From assembly GCA_016840025.1 (NCBI GenBank), contig JAEOTF010000219.1:1-5756 (forward strand): DNA of 5,756 bases. Direction: 5' to 3'. This DNA comes from Candidatus Hodarchaeota archaeon (lineage in GTDB: Archaea; Asgardarchaeota; Heimdallarchaeia; Hodarchaeales; YT1-039). Made by a program: the position numbers and the translations under genes. Of this stretch, positions 122-5,756 are shown piece by piece; positions within the stretch are counted from its first letter, which is position 1; each line of letters begins with the position of its first letter. The notes under the pieces were generated by a model. The model worked only from the letters and a program-made list of their open reading frames with translations, had not been told where the DNA came from and made no database searches.

Positions 122-240
122 CTGCGTTAATGACAAACAATAATCATACAATTAACCTGCTATTTTGAGGGCATGGGATTGAGGGATTCGTTATTTCTAG
201 GCTTGTCAAAAATGAAATCAAACCTAAAAAACAGTCACGA

Positions 241-333
241 AGTGAGGGTGGTCTACCGAATGAAGTTAGAACTCACTTTGTTACTTCAGGAGATAGCGAA
301 AGTGGATTGTTAAATCAACTTTTACCTGTGTAG
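241..333 (+). repeat. Repeat R1a: coding-like remnant (GGLxxEVRTxF)
   Basis: Read in frame to TAG 331-333, this stretch gives GGLPNEVRTHF, then a polar helix-like tail with LLNQLL. The same frame occurs at 2819-2950 (R1b) and 5110-5253 (R1c). DNA identity is highest around GAAGTTmGAAC (255-265). Many differences are synonymous (AGA/CGA, ACT/ACC) or conservative (HF/YY), which points to descent from a real protein-coding 3' end. The open frame extends upstream to a TGA at 166-168, but no start signal was found. The rest of the 122-340 gap holds nothing else recognisable. The parent protein was not recognised. Confidence 0.6.
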
Positions 334-339
334 AACATA

Positions 340-666
340 TTATCTATCTAATTCATGAGTCGCTTCTCTTACCCCCCATGCTCTTGAATTTTCAATCATT
401 GTCTTTATTTTTACTCTCTTTTCAGTGGGTACAATTAATTTTTCATTGAACGTTCTTGCACAAAACTCGCTCCACCTAGAGTATTTATTATCAGAACCAT
501 ATTTTGTTGTAGAGTAAGCAGCATCCGCATTAAAATGCATCAGAAGTAGTTCTGGATCATTATCCTTATTTCCTCTTTTACCTAGAGTGTCGATTATCCT
601 TACTGCTCTTGGAGGGGGCCGCCTCCAGTTGTTCACAATGTTTTTTACTGGTCTTAATATCTCCAT
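340..666 (-). CDS. Hypothetical protein A (108 aa, basic)
   Basis: Not recognised. The protein is basic, with an Arg/Pro-rich patch near the N-terminus (NNWRRPPPRAVR, about residues 12-23), a mixed central part, and aromatic and basic residues around TTKYGSDNKYSRW. There is no signal peptide or membrane segment. The basic patch could bind nucleic acid, but that is only inference. The ATG at 664-666 has no Shine-Dalgarno. A -10-like TCTAAT (minus strand, 673-678) ends 6 bases before it, as for the neighbouring genes, which supports this start. The gene sits alone between repeats R1a and R2a, 6 bases from the R1a stop. It is probably real, judging by its natural composition and promoter, but it could be a fortuitous frame. 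Confidence 0.55.
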   Translation of the reverse strand: MEILRPVKNIVNNWRRPPPRAVRIIDTLGKRGNKDNDPELLLMHFNADAAYSTTKYGSDNKYSRWSEFCARTFNEKLIVPTEKRVKIKTMIENSRAWGVREATHELDR

Positions 667-672
667 ATGATT

Positions 673-678
673 ATTAGA
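673..678 (-). promoter_or_regulatory. -10-like box of gene A, leaderless position
   Basis: TCTAAT on the minus strand matches five of six bases of TATAAT. Exactly 6 bases separate it from the ATG, so transcription would start at or next to the start codon. No good -35 lies 17 bases upstream. The alternative promoter at 699-727 would give a leader of about 25 bases without a Shine-Dalgarno. Confidence 0.35.
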
Positions 679-698
679 AATAATTATTATTGAAATGT

Positions 699-727
699 AG
701 TTTAATAGAAGCCTATATATTTGTCAA
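699..727 (-). promoter_or_regulatory. Sigma-70-type promoter facing gene A
   Basis: On the minus strand a perfect -35 TTGACA (722-727) is followed after 17 bases by TAAACT (699-704), four of six matches to the -10 consensus. It points into gene A, whose ATG lies 32 bases further on. The -35 is immediately outside repeat R2a. The spacing is ideal and the -10 is mediocre. Confidence 0.5.
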
Positions 728-733
728 AAATAA

Positions 734-832
734 TGGGTGGATAACGACTTTTCTTTTGAACCACATTTAGCCTTGTTCATAAAACTTCAAGAGGCATATC
801 CTGAGTATAGAAAGCAGTTTGTGTTTATTTAA
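734..832 (+). repeat. Repeat R2a: coding-like remnant (EPHLALFxKLQEAYP)
   Basis: In frame from 734 to TAA 830-832 this reads W-V-D-N, then EPHLALFIKLQEAYPEYRKQ and FVFI. The second copy is R2b at 1709-1850. Long blocks such as GAACCACATTTAGCCTTGTT are identical, and several differences fall at third codon positions (GCA/GCT, AAA/AAG) or are conservative (Ile/Met). There is no start codon or ribosome site, and a stop lies just upstream (731-733), so it is a fragment and not a gene. The peptide would be an amphipathic helix; the parent family was not recognised. Confidence 0.6.
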
Positions 833-836
833 GGGT

Positions 837-1017
837 AAGTGATGGGGACAATTAGACACCGCTCACTTTTGCATTCTCATTAATCACAATTGCATTATTA
901 TAATACTCTAAAAATTATTAGCAACTATATTCCTAGGTTGAGGTAAATAAAATATGTATGTTTTAAGAACATCACAAACTATATCTTTAAAATTTACATT
1001 ATGCTATATTACAGGTT
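837..1017. other. AT-rich intergenic stretch upstream of gene B
   Basis: No gene was recognised. A TATAAT at 899-904 has no convincing -35. A possible Shine-Dalgarno, GAGGT (940-944), precedes an ATG at 954. This opens a 27-codon frame ending at TGA 1035-1037, which overlaps the start of gene B in another frame. It could be a leader peptide coupled to gene B, or chance. There is no hairpin with a T-tract. Confidence 0.3.
1005..1010 (+). promoter_or_regulatory. -10 box of gene B, leaderless position
   Basis: TATATT (five of six matches to TATAAT) ends 7 bases before the ATG at 1018, so the transcript would begin at or one base before the start codon. No Shine-Dalgarno lies between them beyond a weak AGG. 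No clear -35 is seen at 16-18 bases upstream. Confidence 0.4.
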
Positions 1018-1659
1018 ATGCACAACCTGGAAACTGAAGGGGGTCCTGCAAATAGACGCGACTTCTTAAAAATTGTCGGTGCGGGTGCTACAGGGTTAGC
1101 AATTTATGGCTTCTGGAGATTAAACTACGATTTACAAACAGGAGAAAAACTAAGAAAGATGAATGAATGGGAACCCAAGGTTGCAGATTTTCTACGCGAA
1201 ACATTAGAATCTGATAAACTGGACAATCTAAAGGTTTTTAACGAAATCGCCCGACCTCAATTTGTTGATTTAGTTTCAGAGTCTAAAAGTTCCCTTCTCT
1301 CTCCGATTAAGGAAATCAGCAAGCCTCCGAGATATGACCTCTTAGCTTTTTCTTTAGGTGAGCATTATCAAGAGAATATCCCTACATATGAAGAGGCACC
1401 AGGATACGTTGATTTTTACAACGACACTCTTTCTTTTCTTGATAGAGCAATATTAAGAGTTGGACCCGAAAATGTAAAAGATAAGAATCTTGAAACACAA
1501 TCAAATATGTGGGTAGAAGCATTGTATAGGTCATATTCAGCAGCACATGAATTTGACCCAACGTTAAAAGATGGTGTTTATCTACCAGAAAACCAAACCC
1601 TCATTGGTCGCGGTATTGCTCCGCGCAATCGCTTTGTTAGATTGCAACCTCATTCATAA
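1018..1659 (+). CDS. Tat-signal exported protein B of unknown function (213 aa)
   Basis: The N-terminus carries a clear twin-arginine signal: NRRDFLK at about residues 12-18, followed by a Gly/Ala-rich hydrophobic stretch (IVGAGATGLAIYGFW, about 19-33). This fits the S/N-RRxFLK motif of Tat substrates, which are exported folded. There is no lipobox Cys. The hydrophobic segment is short and lacks a clear AxA cleavage site, so it may stay as an N-terminal anchor. The remaining 180 residues are soluble-looking and mainly helical, with no recognised domain, metal-binding cluster or Cys pattern; Tat substrates often carry cofactors, but none can be inferred here. It is a single gene between repeats R2a and R2b, with a terminator directly after it and a -10 box 7 bases before the ATG. 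The reading frame is secure; the function is unknown. Confidence 0.85.
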   Translation: MHNLETEGGPANRRDFLKIVGAGATGLAIYGFWRLNYDLQTGEKLRKMNEWEPKVADFLRETLESDKLDNLKVFNEIARPQFVDLVSESKSSLLSPIKEISKPPRYDLLAFSLGEHYQENIPTYEEAPGYVDFYNDTLSFLDRAILRVGPENVKDKNLETQSNMWVEALYRSYSAAHEFDPTLKDGVYLPENQTLIGRGIAPRNRFVRLQPHS

Positions 1660-1660
1660 T

Positions 1661-1689
1661 CTTATTTCCTGAAAAAATAAGCCTTTTTA
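1661..1689 (+). terminator. Rho-independent terminator of gene B
   Basis: CTTATTT (1661-1667) pairs with AAATAAG (1675-1681) around a 7-base loop, followed by CC and a T-run (1684-1688). The stem is AT-rich and therefore weak, but it begins two bases after the stop codon of gene B and has the right layout. Confidence 0.6.
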
Positions 1690-1708
1690 TACAAATCATT
1701 AATGGTCT

Positions 1709-1850
1709 GAAGCTTGTATACTATGGGCGGATAACGGTAATTATCTTGAACCACATTTAGCCTTGTTTATGAAGCTTCAAGAGGCTTATCCCCACTACTA
1801 GAAGCAATTCAGTTTTGTTTAGCGGGAACTAGTGAACTTTGTCAGGAACT
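1709..1850 (+). repeat. Repeat R2b joined to R3a
   Basis: The left part (about 1724-1820) is the second copy of R2, reading WADNGNYLEPHLALFMKLQE and AYPHY, then an in-frame TAG (1799-1801) where R2a has Arg. It is therefore a broken remnant. The right part (1811-1850, R3a) matches R3b at 2345-2384 at 34 of 40 bases, including the identical core AACTTTGTCAGGAACT. The end of the repeat runs into gene C and supplies that gene's TGA stop codon (minus strand, 1842-1844). A potential AAGC/GCTT hairpin in this copy is not kept in R2a, which argues against a conserved RNA structure. Confidence 0.6.
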
Positions 1851-2312
1851 ATAATTATTAGGAGTGTGACTCTCAACGAATAATGCTACTCTGGCTGCAT
1901 GTTCATGTCTAATATTTTTCCATTTAATTTCGGTCAGTTCAGGGAGTAAATGAGAATTTATCATTGATTCTGATTTTTCTGATATATGATGTTTAATAGT
2001 ACCTTCGGAATCAATGTAGCATTTTTCAGTCATCATACTTCCCATCCATTTTTTTGGCCAAATAGCCACTGTCACAAATGGAGGTTCTGGTTCAAGTGCA
2101 CCAATTTCGTAAAAGGCATCTGGTGAGACACTGATGGAGTAATCTTTACCTTTCAGCCATGCGGTATCTTCATCTTGACGATTTGATTGAACAGTATCGG
2201 TTAAGCCACGAAGGTAAGAAAATGGGTCTCGGCAAATCTCACTTTCTCTATCTAACTTGAAAGTCGGAAACATTAGTTGCACATTTTTTTCTGGTTGATG
2301 AATCTCTTGCAT
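1842..2312 (-). CDS. Hypothetical protein C (156 aa)
   Basis: Not recognised. It is a soluble protein without a signal peptide or membrane segment. The central part (VTVAIWPKKWMGS, about residues 79-91) looks like beta strands with aromatic residues, and the C-terminal third is helical and charged (SEKSESMINSHLLPELTEIKW). The ATG is supported by a perfect TATAAT 7 bases upstream and no Shine-Dalgarno. The last codons and the TGA stop lie inside repeat R3a, so the present C-terminus was probably set by the junction with the repeat. The gene is followed upstream on the same strand by the Nudix gene, but 76 bases and repeat R3b separate them and each has its own -10, so they need not be one operon. 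Confidence 0.7.
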   Translation of the reverse strand: MQEIHQPEKNVQLMFPTFKLDRESEICRDPFSYLRGLTDTVQSNRQDEDTAWLKGKDYSISVSPDAFYEIGALEPEPPFVTVAIWPKKWMGSMMTEKCYIDSEGTIKHHISEKSESMINSHLLPELTEIKWKNIRHEHAARVALFVESHTPNNYSS

Positions 2313-2319
2313 TGACGTG

Positions 2320-2325
2320 ATTATA
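2320..2325 (-). promoter_or_regulatory. -10 box of gene C, leaderless position
   Basis: A perfect TATAAT on the minus strand lies 7 bases before the start codon, placing transcription start at or next to the A of ATG. The base context upstream has no good -35 at 17 bases. No Shine-Dalgarno is present. Confidence 0.5.
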
Positions 2326-2344
2326 ACATTCAGTGTTTAAAAGA

Positions 2345-2384
2345 ATTTTTGTTTTTCGGGGACTGGTAAACTTTGTCAGGAACT
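2345..2384 (+). repeat. Repeat R3b
   Basis: A 40-base near-copy of R3a (1811-1850) with six mismatches; the last 28 bases differ at three positions only. It lies between gene C and the Nudix gene and ends 4 bases from the Nudix stop codon. Read on the minus strand, both copies begin AGTTCCTGACAAAG. This resembles GTTAATGACAAA just after the transposase stop (126-137), so R3 could be a lone end of an insertion sequence. That link is tentative. Confidence 0.6.
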
Positions 2385-2388
2385 TCTT

Positions 2389-2787
2389 TCAGTCTGAAAT
2401 ATATTGCTCAAAGAACTTTTTAGTTGCAGGCCATACTTTTTGATGTTTTAGTATTTCATTTCTAGTAAACCAGCCAATTTCCGATATTTCCTTTTCATCA
2501 ATAGTAATGGGATTATTTCCGTTGATACATTTCCACCAGTGAGTTGCCTGGTCTTTTACATCACCTGGTGTTTCTGCAATTTTCTCAATTGGAGTTATCT
2601 TGATACCCAATTCCTCCTGCACCTCTCTAATAAGTGAAGTTTTTTCATTTTCACCTTTTTCTAAATGTCCACCTGGTGGATAATAAAAGCCCGTGTGTTT
2701 TCCGAAGTCTCTTTTAGAACTTATAAGAAGAAATTCATTTGTGTCTTTTCTTTTACGAGAGATTATACCAACAACAACATTTTTCAT
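2389..2787 (-). CDS. Nudix hydrolase (132 aa)
   Basis: A complete Nudix box spans residues 40-62: G-x5-E (GGHLEKGE), seven residues, then REVQEELGI, matching GX5EX7REUXEEXGU with all metal-binding Glu and the Arg present. The enzyme should be an active Mg-dependent hydrolase of a nucleoside diphosphate linked to another group. The substrate cannot be read from the sequence; PPGGHLEKGE is typical of the small MutT/NUDT-like subgroup. The length is normal for a single-domain Nudix protein, with strand-rich flanks (NVVVGIISRKR at the N-terminus, EIGWFTRNEIL near the C-terminus). The start is supported by TATACT 6 bases upstream; there is no Shine-Dalgarno. It is divergent from the TrmB-like operon, with repeat R1b between them. 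A house-cleaning or nucleotide-signal role is possible. Confidence 0.92.
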   Translation of the reverse strand: MKNVVVGIISRKRKDTNEFLLISSKRDFGKHTGFYYPPGGHLEKGENEKTSLIREVQEELGIKITPIEKIAETPGDVKDQATHWWKCINGNNPITIDEKEISEIGWFTRNEILKHQKVWPATKKFFEQYISD

Positions 2788-2793
2788 AATTGA

Positions 2794-2799
2794 AGTATA
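2794..2799 (-). promoter_or_regulatory. -10 box of the Nudix gene, leaderless position
   Basis: TATACT on the minus strand (five of six matches to TATAAT) ends exactly 6 bases before the ATG, so the mRNA would start at the start codon. No Shine-Dalgarno exists in these 6 bases. No convincing -35 was found. Confidence 0.45.
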
Positions 2800-2818
2800 T
2801 CATTGTGAGGCTAATTGA

Positions 2819-2950
2819 GGCGGGGGTGTAATAGTAGACGAAGTTCGAACCTATTACGCTCAAGATAGTAGAAGTAAAGAAGTGATAAAACACTTACTTC
2901 TTGTTAATAACCACAAGATTGCTTCGAAGTCTCCATCAATGAATCTATAA
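2819..2950 (+). repeat. Repeat R1b: coding-like remnant (VDEVRTYYAQ)
   Basis: The frame from 2819 to TAA 2948-2950 reads GGGVIVDEVRTYYAQ, then SKEVIKHLLLVNN and a 14-residue unique tail. A TGA sits directly upstream (2816-2818), and no start codon opens it. The block around TAGTAGACGAAGTTCGAACC is almost identical to R1c, and the following differences include the synonymous TAC/TAT. It fills most of the gap between the divergent Nudix and TrmB-like genes, so their upstream regions meet inside or beside it. Confidence 0.65.
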
Positions 2951-2977
2951 CTATTGTTTTAGAAGGGTGTTGTGTAG

Positions 2978-2983
2978 TATATT
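2978..2983 (+). promoter_or_regulatory. -10 box of the TrmB-like/methyltransferase operon
   Basis: TATATT (five of six) lies 11 bases before the ATG at 2995, giving an expected leader of only 4-5 bases. A weak -35-like TTGTTT (2954-2959) lies 18 bases upstream, just beyond the end of R1b. No Shine-Dalgarno precedes the ATG. Confidence 0.45.
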
Positions 2984-2994
2984 CTAATTAAGTT

Positions 2995-3477
2995 ATGCAA
3001 AAGTTTGACAAAAGCAACCCAGAGGATTTTGAGGTGTTGAAGAACAAGTTTGTTTCGTTTTACGAGGGAATTGAAGGTATTAAGGAAGTTTATAGGGATA
3101 CTCTTAAAGCAAAAACCTATTTATTTTCACTTCTTCAACCCTCAGATGTTGATCCAGATTTATATAAATGGCTGACAACAGAATATGTTGAACAGAGGAT
3201 TAAGAAAGGTGTACAAGCTTATGTTGTTCTTTCAACCGAAAAGGAAGATGAAGCTCTTGGTGACTATATTGCAAAAAGCAGAGATGAGTTAAGAATATCG
3301 CACGTTATAAAGTCCGTCGGACACCCTTTTGAAAATGAGATTATCATATATGATGATAAAGTTGCCTTTATTCAATACAATCCAAAGTATCCACTTGGAG
3401 CTATTTTGATAACCCACAAACCCATTGCAAACACAATGAGATCCATGTTTTTGCACTTTCTTTGGAAATCAGAGTAA
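2995..3477 (+). CDS. Stand-alone TrmB-type C-terminal sensor domain (160 aa)
   Basis: The sequence follows the pattern of the C-terminal domain of TrmB-family regulators. It contains GIKEVYRDTLKAK (28-40), VDPDLYKWL (52-60), YVEQRIKKGVQAYVVLS (64-80), HPFENEIIIYDDKVAFI (110-126) and the end IANTMRSMFLHFLW (144-157). Full TrmB regulators are about 250-270 residues and begin with a winged helix-turn-helix that binds DNA. That part is absent: only about 27 residues precede the domain, and a -10 box and short leader support this ATG. It is thus probably a sensor or adaptor domain that cannot bind DNA alone. Inference: it either binds a small ligand and acts on the methyltransferase encoded 11 bases downstream, or partners a separate DNA-binding protein. 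A recent truncation that left the frame open is the alternative. Confidence 0.8.
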   Translation: MQKFDKSNPEDFEVLKNKFVSFYEGIEGIKEVYRDTLKAKTYLFSLLQPSDVDPDLYKWLTTEYVEQRIKKGVQAYVVLSTEKEDEALGDYIAKSRDELRISHVIKSVGHPFENEIIIYDDKVAFIQYNPKYPLGAILITHKPIANTMRSMFLHFLWKSE

Positions 3478-3488
3478 TATATGGAACT

Positions 3489-5027
3489 ATGGAGGAACCA
3501 GTCAAGAATGAAGGAACGACAGCAACAAACGAGGTTGTAACCGAGATCCAAAAAAAAGCTCCGGAAATTTCACAAAATAATCTACGAAAACTTGACCCCG
3601 AGGAATATCTTGAGACACTTAGAAAGGTAGCGTTTTCTGATGATGTCTCACCAGCCGCTGGATATATTGACGTGATTATTGACAGATTTCATGAAGAATT
3701 ATCTGAAAACGGAGATAAAGAATATCCTGCAAGGTGGATAGCACACGACATAGGGCAAGAAACCAGAAGAGTATTGTGGAGATTTGCTGTGGATAGGGAT
3801 ATAAGAGTAAAACCAGAATTATTGGACAAACTATATACCTTTGTAGATGATCCAAATAGAGTGGTGAGATTCCATTCAAGCGAGTATTTATCAGACATTA
3901 TTGTTTTAGATAATAGGAACGGTGAGGAGTCTTTGGGACTATATAGCCGGTATAAAAAGGATGTGGTAGGTAAACTAACAACACCAAAGGAAGATGATGA
4001 AGTTGAAACAGCAATATGGATGGTTGATACAGCCTGGGCGTCATTTCCTAGCCAACTCCAGCCGATGTTGATAGATGCAATGGAAGTTGCTGAAGACGAT
4101 GAAGCAATTATAAGAGCTTTTGGGATTTTTTCAAACAGGATTGGTTTTGAGGAAGCCAGAAAGTTACTTAAAAGTCATGCTCAAGAAAGTGAGGATTTTA
4201 GGCCAAAACTTGAGAAAATTGAGAAAGCGCTTGATTTGACGAGGGGGAAAGTCTTTGATGATCTAAAAAGACTATATGATGAAATTAACTTTCAAAACTA
4301 CGCACCCAATGAAGAACTGATTGCTTTTGAAAGAGATATTCTCATGCAAGAGATTGATGAGGATGACAAGAGAGTTCTAGACATAGGACAAGGTCCTGCC
4401 GGAAGGCATGTTAAAGCTTTGGGAGAAGAAGGGATCAATGCAATGGGATTTGATTTTGTCCAAAAACATTCTACTCTTGCAAAGAAAGCAAATCCCGAAA
4501 GAGATATTATGGTTGCTGACTGGCACAATATGCCTTTTAAAAGCGATAGTGTAGATGTAGCTTATTGTTTAGGAAGGTCGTTTACTCACAACACAACTAC
4601 CGATGATGCAATTGCATTTCTTAGAGAATCCAGGAGAGTTATTAAAGATGATGGTAAATTGATTGTAGATTTACCGGAAAACACTGGGAACTATTTCCAG
4701 CGAGAAAGAAACCGCCTCGAACAAGCTGCACAAAAACTCGGAATAAGTCATAAAGAATTGGGGTCAATAATTGACAGCCCAGATGGTATGAACTTTTTTG
4801 ACAGACTTCTACCTTCAGAGGAACAATTTAAGGCAATGGCAACGATATCCGGATTTGAAGCAGAGAGAATAAAAGAAAGAAGATATACAGATAGTGAGGG
4901 GCATGAAAATGTAAATGCTTACTACAGATTAACTCCTTTGGGAAAAACCCCCAGTTTTGATGAACTCATGGATGCAATTCATACAGCTCACACGGCTCAT
5001 CCTCCCCTATATGTAACTTATATATAA
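3489..5027 (+). CDS. HEAT-like helical domain fused to class I SAM-dependent methyltransferase (512 aa)
   Basis: Residues about 36-246 are all-helical with repeated paired-helix units of HEAT-like character, for example DDPNRVVRFHSSEYLSDII. A class I methyltransferase core follows (about 281-400). Motif I is VLDIGQGPAGR (296-306), with Gln301 where Cys, Ala or an acidic residue is more usual. Asp322 in GFDF ends strand 2, VADWHNMPF (342-350) is the loop that usually contacts adenine, and DSVDVAYCLG (353-362) is strand 4. The final segment (about 400-512) has a helical insertion and closing strands (ISGFEAERIKERRY), and ends with HTAHTAH. The substrate is unknown; it resembles Methyltransf_11/25-type small-molecule or protein methylases. 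ATG 3489 is preferred over the in-frame TTG at 3462, which would overlap the previous gene. There is no Shine-Dalgarno, so translation is probably coupled to the TrmB-like gene 11 bases upstream. Confidence 0.85.
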   Translation: MEEPVKNEGTTATNEVVTEIQKKAPEISQNNLRKLDPEEYLETLRKVAFSDDVSPAAGYIDVIIDRFHEELSENGDKEYPARWIAHDIGQETRRVLWRFAVDRDIRVKPELLDKLYTFVDDPNRVVRFHSSEYLSDIIVLDNRNGEESLGLYSRYKKDVVGKLTTPKEDDEVETAIWMVDTAWASFPSQLQPMLIDAMEVAEDDEAIIRAFGIFSNRIGFEEARKLLKSHAQESEDFRPKLEKIEKALDLTRGKVFDDLKRLYDEINFQNYAPNEELIAFERDILMQEIDEDDKRVLDIGQGPAGRHVKALGEEGINAMGFDFVQKHSTLAKKANPERDIMVADWHNMPFKSDSVDVAYCLGRSFTHNTTTDDAIAFLRESRRVIKDDGKLIVDLPENTGNYFQRERNRLEQAAQKLGISHKELGSIIDSPDGMNFFDRLLPSEEQFKAMATISGFEAERIKERRYTDSEGHENVNAYYRLTPLGKTPSFDELMDAIHTAHTAHPPLYVTYI

Positions 5028-5028
5028 G

Positions 5029-5253
5029 ATGTTACTTATGATTGGTTTCTGCTCGAACCTCAAACTCCCCATAATTATGGGTTATTATGATGCATTTTTA
5101 ATTATGTCCGGTTGGGGTGGACTAGTAGACGAAGTTCGAACCTATTATGCTCAAGAAACGAAAGAAAAGGAGTTGTTTAAATACTTATTATGTCTCAATA
5201 ACAATTCTGAAAAACAATCTATTTGGACAGTCAGCAAGAAACTCCAGATATAG
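5029..5253 (+). pseudogene. Short open frame ending in repeat R1c, probably a remnant
   Basis: A 74-codon frame starts one base after the methyltransferase stop. Its first part (MLLMIGFCSNLK and onward) looks random and has no ribosome site. The second part is the R1 motif. Because the recognisable half also exists twice elsewhere as a fragment without a start, the frame is more likely a decayed 3' end than a working gene. The palindrome CCCATAATTATGGG at 5068-5081 lies inside it and could be a weak hairpin at the end of the operon transcript, but no T-tract follows. A real small third gene of the operon cannot be excluded. Confidence 0.4.
5110..5253 (+). repeat. Repeat R1c: coding-like remnant (GWGGLVDEVRTYYAQ)
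   Basis: This is the best-preserved copy of R1, reading GWGGLVDEVRTYYAQ, then a charged helix-like part with KELFKYLLCLNNN, and ending at TAG 5251-5253. It shares with R1b a nearly unbroken match across GTAGACGAAGTTCGAACCTATTA. After that, protein similarity persists (KEVIKHLLLVNN against KELFKYLLCLNN) while the DNA has changed, the mark of past selection on protein. It closes the series of repeats at the right end of the cassette-like region. Confidence 0.65.
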
Positions 5254-5447
5254 CCTCAAAAGATCAGTCAGTGCTAGGCTCGATATTTCAATAAGATAAA
5301 ATATTCCATTCCAATTTACTATTAAAATGCTACCACCGAGGTATTATTAGATGTTATTGGAGAGGAATAAAAAGGGCAGGATAGTAACTTCAAAATTCCC
5401 CGATCCTCAAGTCTGAAAGTATTAACAAATTAGGCTTTAGATTAAGC
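5254..5447. other. Gap without recognised genes
   Basis: No gene, RNA gene or convincing terminator was seen. A 21-codon frame (5351-5416) has no ribosome site and an in-frame stop directly before it. The short inverted repeat TACC/GGTA at 5330-5343 is too small to interpret. Confidence 0.4.
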
Positions 5448-5476
5448 TTGACAAGGACTTGGCACAAGAGTAACAT
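5448..5476 (+). promoter_or_regulatory. Sigma-70-type promoter of the DUF5320-like gene
   Basis: A perfect -35 TTGACA (5448-5453) is followed after 17 bases by TAACAT (5471-5476), four of six matches to TATAAT. The expected start near 5483 gives a leader of about 39 bases that contains a strong Shine-Dalgarno. The -10 box overlaps the palindrome at 5475-5490. Confidence 0.6.
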
Positions 5477-5490
5477 GAATATATATTCAT
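5475..5490. promoter_or_regulatory. Perfect 16-base palindrome, candidate operator
   Basis: ATGAATATATATTCAT equals its own reverse complement. It begins in the last bases of the -10 box and covers the expected transcription start, so a bound dimer would block the promoter. AT-rich ATGAAT/ATTCAT dyads resemble ArsR/SmtB-type operators, but the regulator is not in the window and the family is a guess. With no loop, it is more likely a protein site than an RNA hairpin. Confidence 0.5.
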
Positions 5491-5501
5491 ATGATATGCA
5501 G

Positions 5502-5512
5502 GAAGGGGGTGA
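5502..5512 (+). promoter_or_regulatory. Strong Shine-Dalgarno of the DUF5320-like gene
   Basis: GAAGGGGGTGA differs from the full anti-SD complement AAGGAGGTGA by one base within its last ten positions. About 9 bases separate it from ATG 5522. It is the only strong ribosome site serving a recognised gene in the window and fixes this start. Confidence 0.75.
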
Positions 5513-5521
5513 AAATAATAT

Positions 5522-5756
5522 ATGCCAAGATTAGATAAAACAGGTCCGCAAGGCATGGGTCCAGGAACTGGTAGAGGTTTTGGTCCTTGCTTTGGTTTTG
5601 GACCTAGACATTTACACCACCACAATAGGGGGCTAGGTAGGTATTTCAGATGGAATTGGCCACAAGCGAAGGAAAGCCAAGTGGAGACTCTTGCGGATTA
5701 TCGAAAAGCACTTGAAGAAGAGCTGGAGGATGTCAAAAAGGAGGAAGAAGAACTAA
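5522..5756 (+). CDS. DUF5320-like Gly/Pro-rich protein, partial at right edge
   Basis: The first 78 residues are present. The N-terminus MPRLDKTGPQGMGPGTGRGF is the hallmark of the DUF5320 family (MPxxDxTGPxGxGPxTGRG), small proteins of anaerobic bacteria and archaea. They are often found near NifX/NifB-type iron-molybdenum cofactor proteins and Mrp-type ATPases. A Cys (23) and a His cluster (RHLHHH, 29-34) follow the Gly-rich part and could bind metal. From about residue 51 the chain turns into an acidic coiled-coil-like helix (ADYRKALEEELEDVKKEEEE), also usual in this family. The exact role is unknown. The leader, promoter and palindromic operator suggest regulated expression, unlike the leaderless genes to the left. 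The gene may head an operon outside the window. Confidence 0.85.
   Translation, partial: MPRLDKTGPQGMGPGTGRGFGPCFGFGPRHLHHHNRGLGRYFRWNWPQAKESQVETLADYRKALEEELEDVKKEEEEL

Follow-up and report, generated by a model that had tools for sequence, protein, structure and literature searches.

Repeat pairs and gene layout

The window analysed here is a lone contig of 5,756 bases (JAEOTF010000219.1) from a Candidatus Hodarchaeota archaeon. Its genes are separated by gaps that hold three families of degenerate direct repeats (R1, R2 and R3), and each pair of copies brackets a separate unit: R1 encloses gene A (1018–1659, plus strand, 213 amino acids), R3 encloses gene B (1842–2312, minus strand, 156 amino acids) and R2 encloses an operon of gene D (2995–3477, plus strand, 160 amino acids) and gene E (3489–5027, plus strand, 512 amino acids). 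Gene C (2389–2787, minus strand, 132 amino acids) is flanked by two different families, R3 and R2, while the open reading frame g0 (340–666, minus strand, 108 amino acids) has the left R1 copy on its 5' side and only a weak R2-like stretch, termed Lx, on the other. The tail of a transposase gene (2–121) and a DUF5320 gene (5522–5755), both on the plus strand and both cut by the contig ends, lie at the two extremities. The G+C content in sliding windows along the contig is 32–40%.

All copies are given on the plus strand. R1a (733–838) and R1b (1723–1828) are 75% identical over 106 nt (self-BLASTN E 2.5e-18), R3a (1813–1850) and R3b (2347–2384) are 87% identical over 38 nt (E 5.7e-7), and R2a (2823–2911) and R2b (5114–5202) are 75% identical over 89 nt (E 5.1e-15). 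Repeat finding and self-BLAST agreed on these three direct pairs, which were also the only ones of 15 direct gap-versus-gap comparisons whose score was reached by none of 200 shuffles; none of the 21 reverse comparisons lay beyond all 200 shuffles, the lowest values being 1/200 (gap 2305–2420 against itself) and 2/200 (gap 5020–5525 against itself). The six copies sum to 466 bases, 16 of which are common to R1b and R3a, since these two overlap at 1813–1828 and form one composite block. Only nine bases fall inside a gene, where R3a covers the 3' end of gene B. R3 adjoins genes B and C, each on the minus strand, at their 3' ends, R3b being four bases from the end of gene C, and the spacing is 63 bases from gene A to R1b and 86 bases from gene E to R2b. 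Shorter repeat families are also present, mostly within genes.

The repeats, their pairing, their direct orientation, their position in the gaps and the lack of relationship among the genes are directly seen. The initial annotation had described three recurring repeat families, all in plus orientation, that bound every unit like cassettes. The three families are indeed significant and degenerate (75–87% identity), but there are two copies of each and no more. A firm repeat occupies five of the six gaps, although the sixth, to the left of g0, holds only the weak Lx, and gene C sits between two families. The common orientation stands insofar as each pair is direct; because unrelated families cannot be compared in orientation, it amounts to three within-family comparisons, which would all agree by chance in 1 of 8 cases. 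Of the 90 possible orders 6 are non-interleaved, the observed R1 R1 R3 R3 R2 R2 among them, and jointly with the orientations this gives a figure of ~0.008, reckoned post hoc. This non-interleaved direct pairing speaks for a process acting locally, each of the three units lying within a pair of its own. As had been noted, the genes show no relationship to one another, 0.67 being the lowest BLASTP E-value for any two of the window proteins; tandem duplication of a gene together with its repeat is therefore ruled out as the cause of the layout. Among the titles and abstract openings listed in a literature search, none described such an arrangement. The arrangement is consistent with an accessory region that grew by insertions.

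R2 differs from the other families in its internal structure. It has a core of 34 bases with one mismatch (permutation p 0.001), and its mismatches are distributed unevenly, with 3 in the first 43 bases and 19 in the last 46 (p 0.0002); no significant core was detected in R1 (p 0.18) or R3 (p 0.63). Lx (approximately 246–337, plus strand) may be a third, diverged R2-like stretch, although its assignment is uncertain: its match to R2b was reached by 0 of 300 shuffles and that to R2a by 3.7% of 300, but under another scoring 18 of 200 shuffles did as well, and its protein-level score against R2b of 40 compares with 41 or more in 6 of 60 shuffled windows. A weak R2-like frame at 169–330 has the two R2 copies as its best two matches outside itself (scores 40 and 34). 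The idea that R3 is a piece of the R2 family found no support, as 71% and 82% of 300 shuffles matched as well at the DNA level and its protein score of 31 lies just below 32, the median of the best scores from shuffled windows.

Promoter-like boxes

A −10-like box lies 4–13 nt before the start codon in five of the seven genes (A, B, C, D and E), as against 29 of the 204 ATGs in the window, gene starts included. In genes A, B, C and D the boxes are located 6–12 bases before the starts, within 1000–1017, 2313–2330, 2788–2800 and 2970–2994, respectively; the box of gene E sits between D and E, and g0 and the DUF5320 gene have none. Judged from the sequence, these boxes suggest leaderless, self-promoted genes, and because five of seven carry one at the start, most of the genes may drive their own transcription. 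This would set them apart from integron cassettes, which are described as promoterless (PMC6393395).

Comparison with known recombination sites

The boundary boxes of attC sites follow the consensus RYYYAAC ... GTTRRRY. A strict pair of such boxes was found at a single place in the window (1556–1642), inside gene A, and none occurs in the gaps. Relaxed AAC...GTT boxes (6/7 complementary) were found at three gap places, 150–286, 2885–2962 and 5052–5140, a count made with no shuffle control; they overlap Lx, R2a and R2b in part only, and none brackets a repeat. attC sites combine boundary boxes with a folded hairpin (PMC2727003; PMC9668308). R2a is predicted to fold stably, and on neither strand did any of 200 shuffles equal it. 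The other copies tested on both strands, R1a, R1b and R2b, do not exceed their shuffles in stability: R2b is equalled by 171 and 176 of 200, and the closest approach is the minus strand of R1b, with 29 of 200 as stable. On the minus strand of the two R3 copies, 179 and 163 of 200 shuffles are as stable. The repeats were accordingly rejected as attC sites: the gaps lack strict boxes, and the copies have no hairpin in common. The R2a hairpin (GTAATAG/CTATTAC, 2828–2857) is lost in R2b. That R3 might terminate transcription of genes B and C as an intrinsic terminator was likewise discarded, since its minus strand does not fold; three terminator-like sites lie elsewhere.

Clusters of attC sites without an integrase (CALIN) exist (PMC7923331). 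The window resembles an integron cassette array or CALIN in having short unrelated genes, degenerate repeats in one orientation and, in the case of R3, repeats placed shortly after the stop codon of gene B and that of gene C. It differs from both in its boxes and hairpins, in having genes on both strands, in the restriction of each repeat family to one pair, and in the promoter-like boxes of five of its seven genes. The earlier statement that this is not a classical integron agrees with the box and hairpin results. Scanning of nine window proteins against Pfam gave no recombinase or integrase over the cut-off, although the contig is short. The one match below the cut-off was that of gene B to Phage_int_SAM_3 (E 0.012, 16.3 bits against a cut-off of 22.6), which is probably due to chance. 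A search against Rfam returned nothing over threshold, one match having E 4.6, and ARAGORN detected no tRNA in the window; the GTTCGAA motif in R2 is therefore not a tRNA arm that this program recognises.

The pdif sites of Acinetobacter dif modules are described in PMC6449649 as 28 bp with two 11-bp arms for XerC and XerD. Scored against the E. coli dif consensus, the best match in the window is the start of R1b (1724–1751), with 16 of 22 arm positions, a value reached by 3 of 60 shuffled windows, and the start of R1a (734–761) is among three places with 14 of 22. With two other dif consensuses, the window score was reached by 39 and 59 of 60 shuffles. The repeats thus resemble dif at about chance level, and the dif likeness of R1 is to be taken as a lead rather than a result. 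R1a and R1b differ most at the would-be dif spacer. Gene units bracketed by short related sites are a feature that the window has in common with dif modules; unlike the 28-bp pdif sites with their two arms, the repeats here measure 38–106 nt.

Integrated elements may be flanked by direct repeats of the 3' end of a gene, known as attL and attR. The likeness here consists in unrelated cargo between direct copies and in R2 as a possible coding tail, whereas the window has no integrase over the cut-off, no intact target gene is seen and the copies are strongly diverged. Repetitive extragenic palindromic (REP) sequences and miniature inverted-repeat transposable elements (MITEs) are dispersed intergenic repeats, and degenerate repeats in gaps between genes recall them, but here there are two copies of each, paired around units. 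As to a composite transposon or the ends of insertion sequences (IS), none of 25 among the 26 inverted pairs of at least 12 nt has its arms in the gaps flanking one unit; one inverted pair of 14 nt (743–756/5161–5174) has its arms in R1a and R2b, with genes A to E between them. Unlike the short target duplications of such elements, the direct repeats of the window are 38–106 nt in length and 75–87% alike.

Coding potential of the repeats

Both R2 copies have an open plus frame, R2a in 2819–2947 and R2b within a frame of 74 amino acids at 5029–5253. In this frame, the amino-acid similarity of the copies (BLOSUM62) exceeds that obtained when the same substitutions were placed at random 4,000 times (p 0.002, the lowest value in 18 frame tests), which suggests that R2 may be a coding remnant. 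In R1a, a plus frame is open at 734–829, and R1b has an in-frame stop at 1799–1801. By the same method the plus frames gave p 0.06 for R1 and 0.09 for R3, and a minus frame of R3 gave p 0.04; R1 and R3 are less sure than R2, and their putative coding origin is a lead only.

Origin of the repeat pairs

Recombination at short stretches of homology, which were perhaps the tails of decaying genes, may have left the repeats as old insertion scars. We favour this explanation over three rivals, though tentatively and at somewhat less than even chances. The segment would be an accessory mosaic in which three unrelated units (A, B and D–E) each came to lie within a direct repeat pair of their own. Donor DNA, circular or flanked, that carried a gene together with a short stretch homologous to the target would have recombined into the target stretch by a homologous or site-specific crossover; the insertion would have left the target stretch duplicated at both ends of the unit, and the copies would later have drifted to 75–87% identity. 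Since R2, and with less certainty also R1 and R3, resemble coding remnants that would stem from the tail of a gene since lost, insertion may have targeted the ends of decaying genes instead of sites dedicated to recombination. Speaking for this explanation are the three significant, direct and non-interleaved pairs, the unrelated genes between the copies, the promoter-like boxes of five genes, the transposase tail at the left end of the contig and the plus-frame similarity of R2. From the layout and frames described above we infer the insertion origin of the pairs, the mode of crossover and the coding origin of the repeats. The initial annotation had proposed recombination at recurring short sequences; neither a recombinase over the cut-off nor a recurrent site was seen, and such recombination is accordingly a conjecture.

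A number of observations weigh against this explanation. There are only two copies per family, and the pairing figure of ~0.008 was calculated after the fact. The coding signal of the repeats is weak: when identical residues only are counted, the best plus frames give p 0.12 (R1), 0.11 (R2) and 0.15 (R3), a minus frame of R3 equals its plus frame (p 0.04), and the favoured frame is interrupted by stops in R1b and in R3a. A protein database search covering proteins of ~27–86 residues returned for the R2 peptide its own window protein alone and no parent gene, and for the R1–R3 read-through region no candidate sharing three words was found among proteins of ~165–525 residues. The five peptides of R1a, R1b, R2a, R2b and Lx had no match in Pfam or NCBIfam, and the R1, R2 and Lx peptides matched PHROGs only at E 0.12 or worse. 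Finally, the searches made revealed no empty site, relative or second contig, for which reason insertion itself is something that we infer. These searches gave no second instance of R1, R2 or R3 in viral contigs, phages, plasmids and proteins, or, for R1 and R2 only, in cellular genomes. The degenerate peptide pattern of R1 had no match in a cellular set of one genome per species, R2 was found in 0 of 400 cellular genomes, all of one phylum, and neither pattern matched viral contigs; the single exact match to R3 came from a viral contig, where it falls within a long coding frame, and was taken as chance.

The degenerate copies could alternatively belong to dispersed intergenic families, REP- or MITE-like or several degenerate ones, of which two copies each happen to lie here and which had no role in the arrival of the genes. 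Their position in the gaps agrees with this, as do the better conserved core of R2, which R1 and R3 lack, and the stable hairpin of R2a. Non-interleaved direct pairs are improbable for random draws, however (6 of 90 orders and 1 of 8 orientations), and that hairpin was not kept in R2b and is present in neither R1 copy, so that dispersed families seem to us a rather unlikely source, if the foremost among the rivals. Less likely still, yet deserving of consideration, is an origin from decayed paralogues, in which one or two gene families, formerly arranged in tandem, would have left their decayed 3' ends as the repeats, while other genes landed or survived between them, with no link to gene mobility. 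The open plus frames of both R2 copies and R1a, the conservative changes in R2, the contiguity of R1b and R3a and the preference of the weak frame at 169–330 for the R2 copies would all be expected of such tails. Against them, the signal is significant for R2 alone, and there only when conservative changes are counted; searches of proteins, Pfam, NCBIfam and PHROGs found no full-length parent; and R3 is linked to R2 neither by DNA nor by protein, while the link of Lx is near chance.

A true cassette system, in which an integron-like or Xer/dif-like recombinase exchanges units at the repeats, would explain why five of the six gaps hold a firm repeat and the remaining one a weak repeat, why R3a overlaps the 3' end of gene B and R3b nearly touches that of gene C, and why the best E. 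coli dif-like match falls at the start of R1b, with R1a among three places at 14 of 22. We regard it as highly improbable, given that strict attC boxes occur only inside gene A and the relaxed ones bracket no repeat, that no hairpin is shared, that the dif score is reached by 3 of 60 shuffles and by far more with the other consensuses, and that the nine scanned proteins hold no recombinase beyond the one match below cut-off. Even smaller is the probability that we assign to a cassette system of a non-integron kind, in which self-promoted units would insert at decaying gene tails and each insertion would duplicate the tail, giving an array of units bracketed by their own pairs. Should sister genomes carry different units between the same repeats, the region would represent a route of gene capture distinct from integrons and dif modules; at present it is a single contig whose scars are compatible with several ordinary processes.

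Gene content

The gene tail at 2–121 encodes the C-terminus of an IS3/IS481-type transposase (Pfam rve_2 E 1.4e-5; NCBIfam IS3 E 1e-6) and marks the region as one touched by mobile elements. A blastn comparison of the whole window with plasmids and phages gave no match. The product of g0 belongs to no Pfam or NCBIfam family and matches PHROGs at E 0.13 or worse. That of gene A has an N-terminus weakly resembling a twin-arginine translocation (Tat) signal, below the cut-off, and is otherwise without family; no relative was found in plasmids or viral contigs, and no PDB match was better than E 0.48. Gene B has no family over the cut-off. Gene D has none in Pfam or NCBIfam, its best PDB match is no better than E 0.62, and a phage search gave no relative. 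Single-sequence folds of the B and D products were of low confidence (mean predicted local distance difference test scores of 33 and 44).

Gene E encodes a protein with a C-terminal S-adenosylmethionine-dependent methyltransferase domain (Pfam Methyltransf_11 9.7e-13) and an N-terminal region with a marginal HEAT-like match (E 0.096, below the cut-off). The sole relative found, among the 7,997 scored candidates sharing most words, is the 535-amino-acid protein P0002 (39%), and none was found in plasmids. A two-row alignment of gene E and P0002 gave no match, at E up to 1e-15, in viral contigs, 301 genomes of one phylum and 40 of another, an empty result that is uninformative without a genome known to match. 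The methyltransferase part also matches PADLOC mad2 (E 8.9e-8). Gene C encodes a NUDIX hydrolase (Pfam NUDIX 8.5e-16) with matches at four loci in four unlike organisms (31–57% over short stretches), and it matches the PADLOC candidate PDC-S07 (E 1.1e-14). The gene cut by the right end of the contig has a DUF5320 match (Pfam 1.4e-12). In the genome of locus L003, three consecutive DUF5320-like matches (L006–L008) were found at G002:C38:29587-30276, one of them with an internal stop codon.

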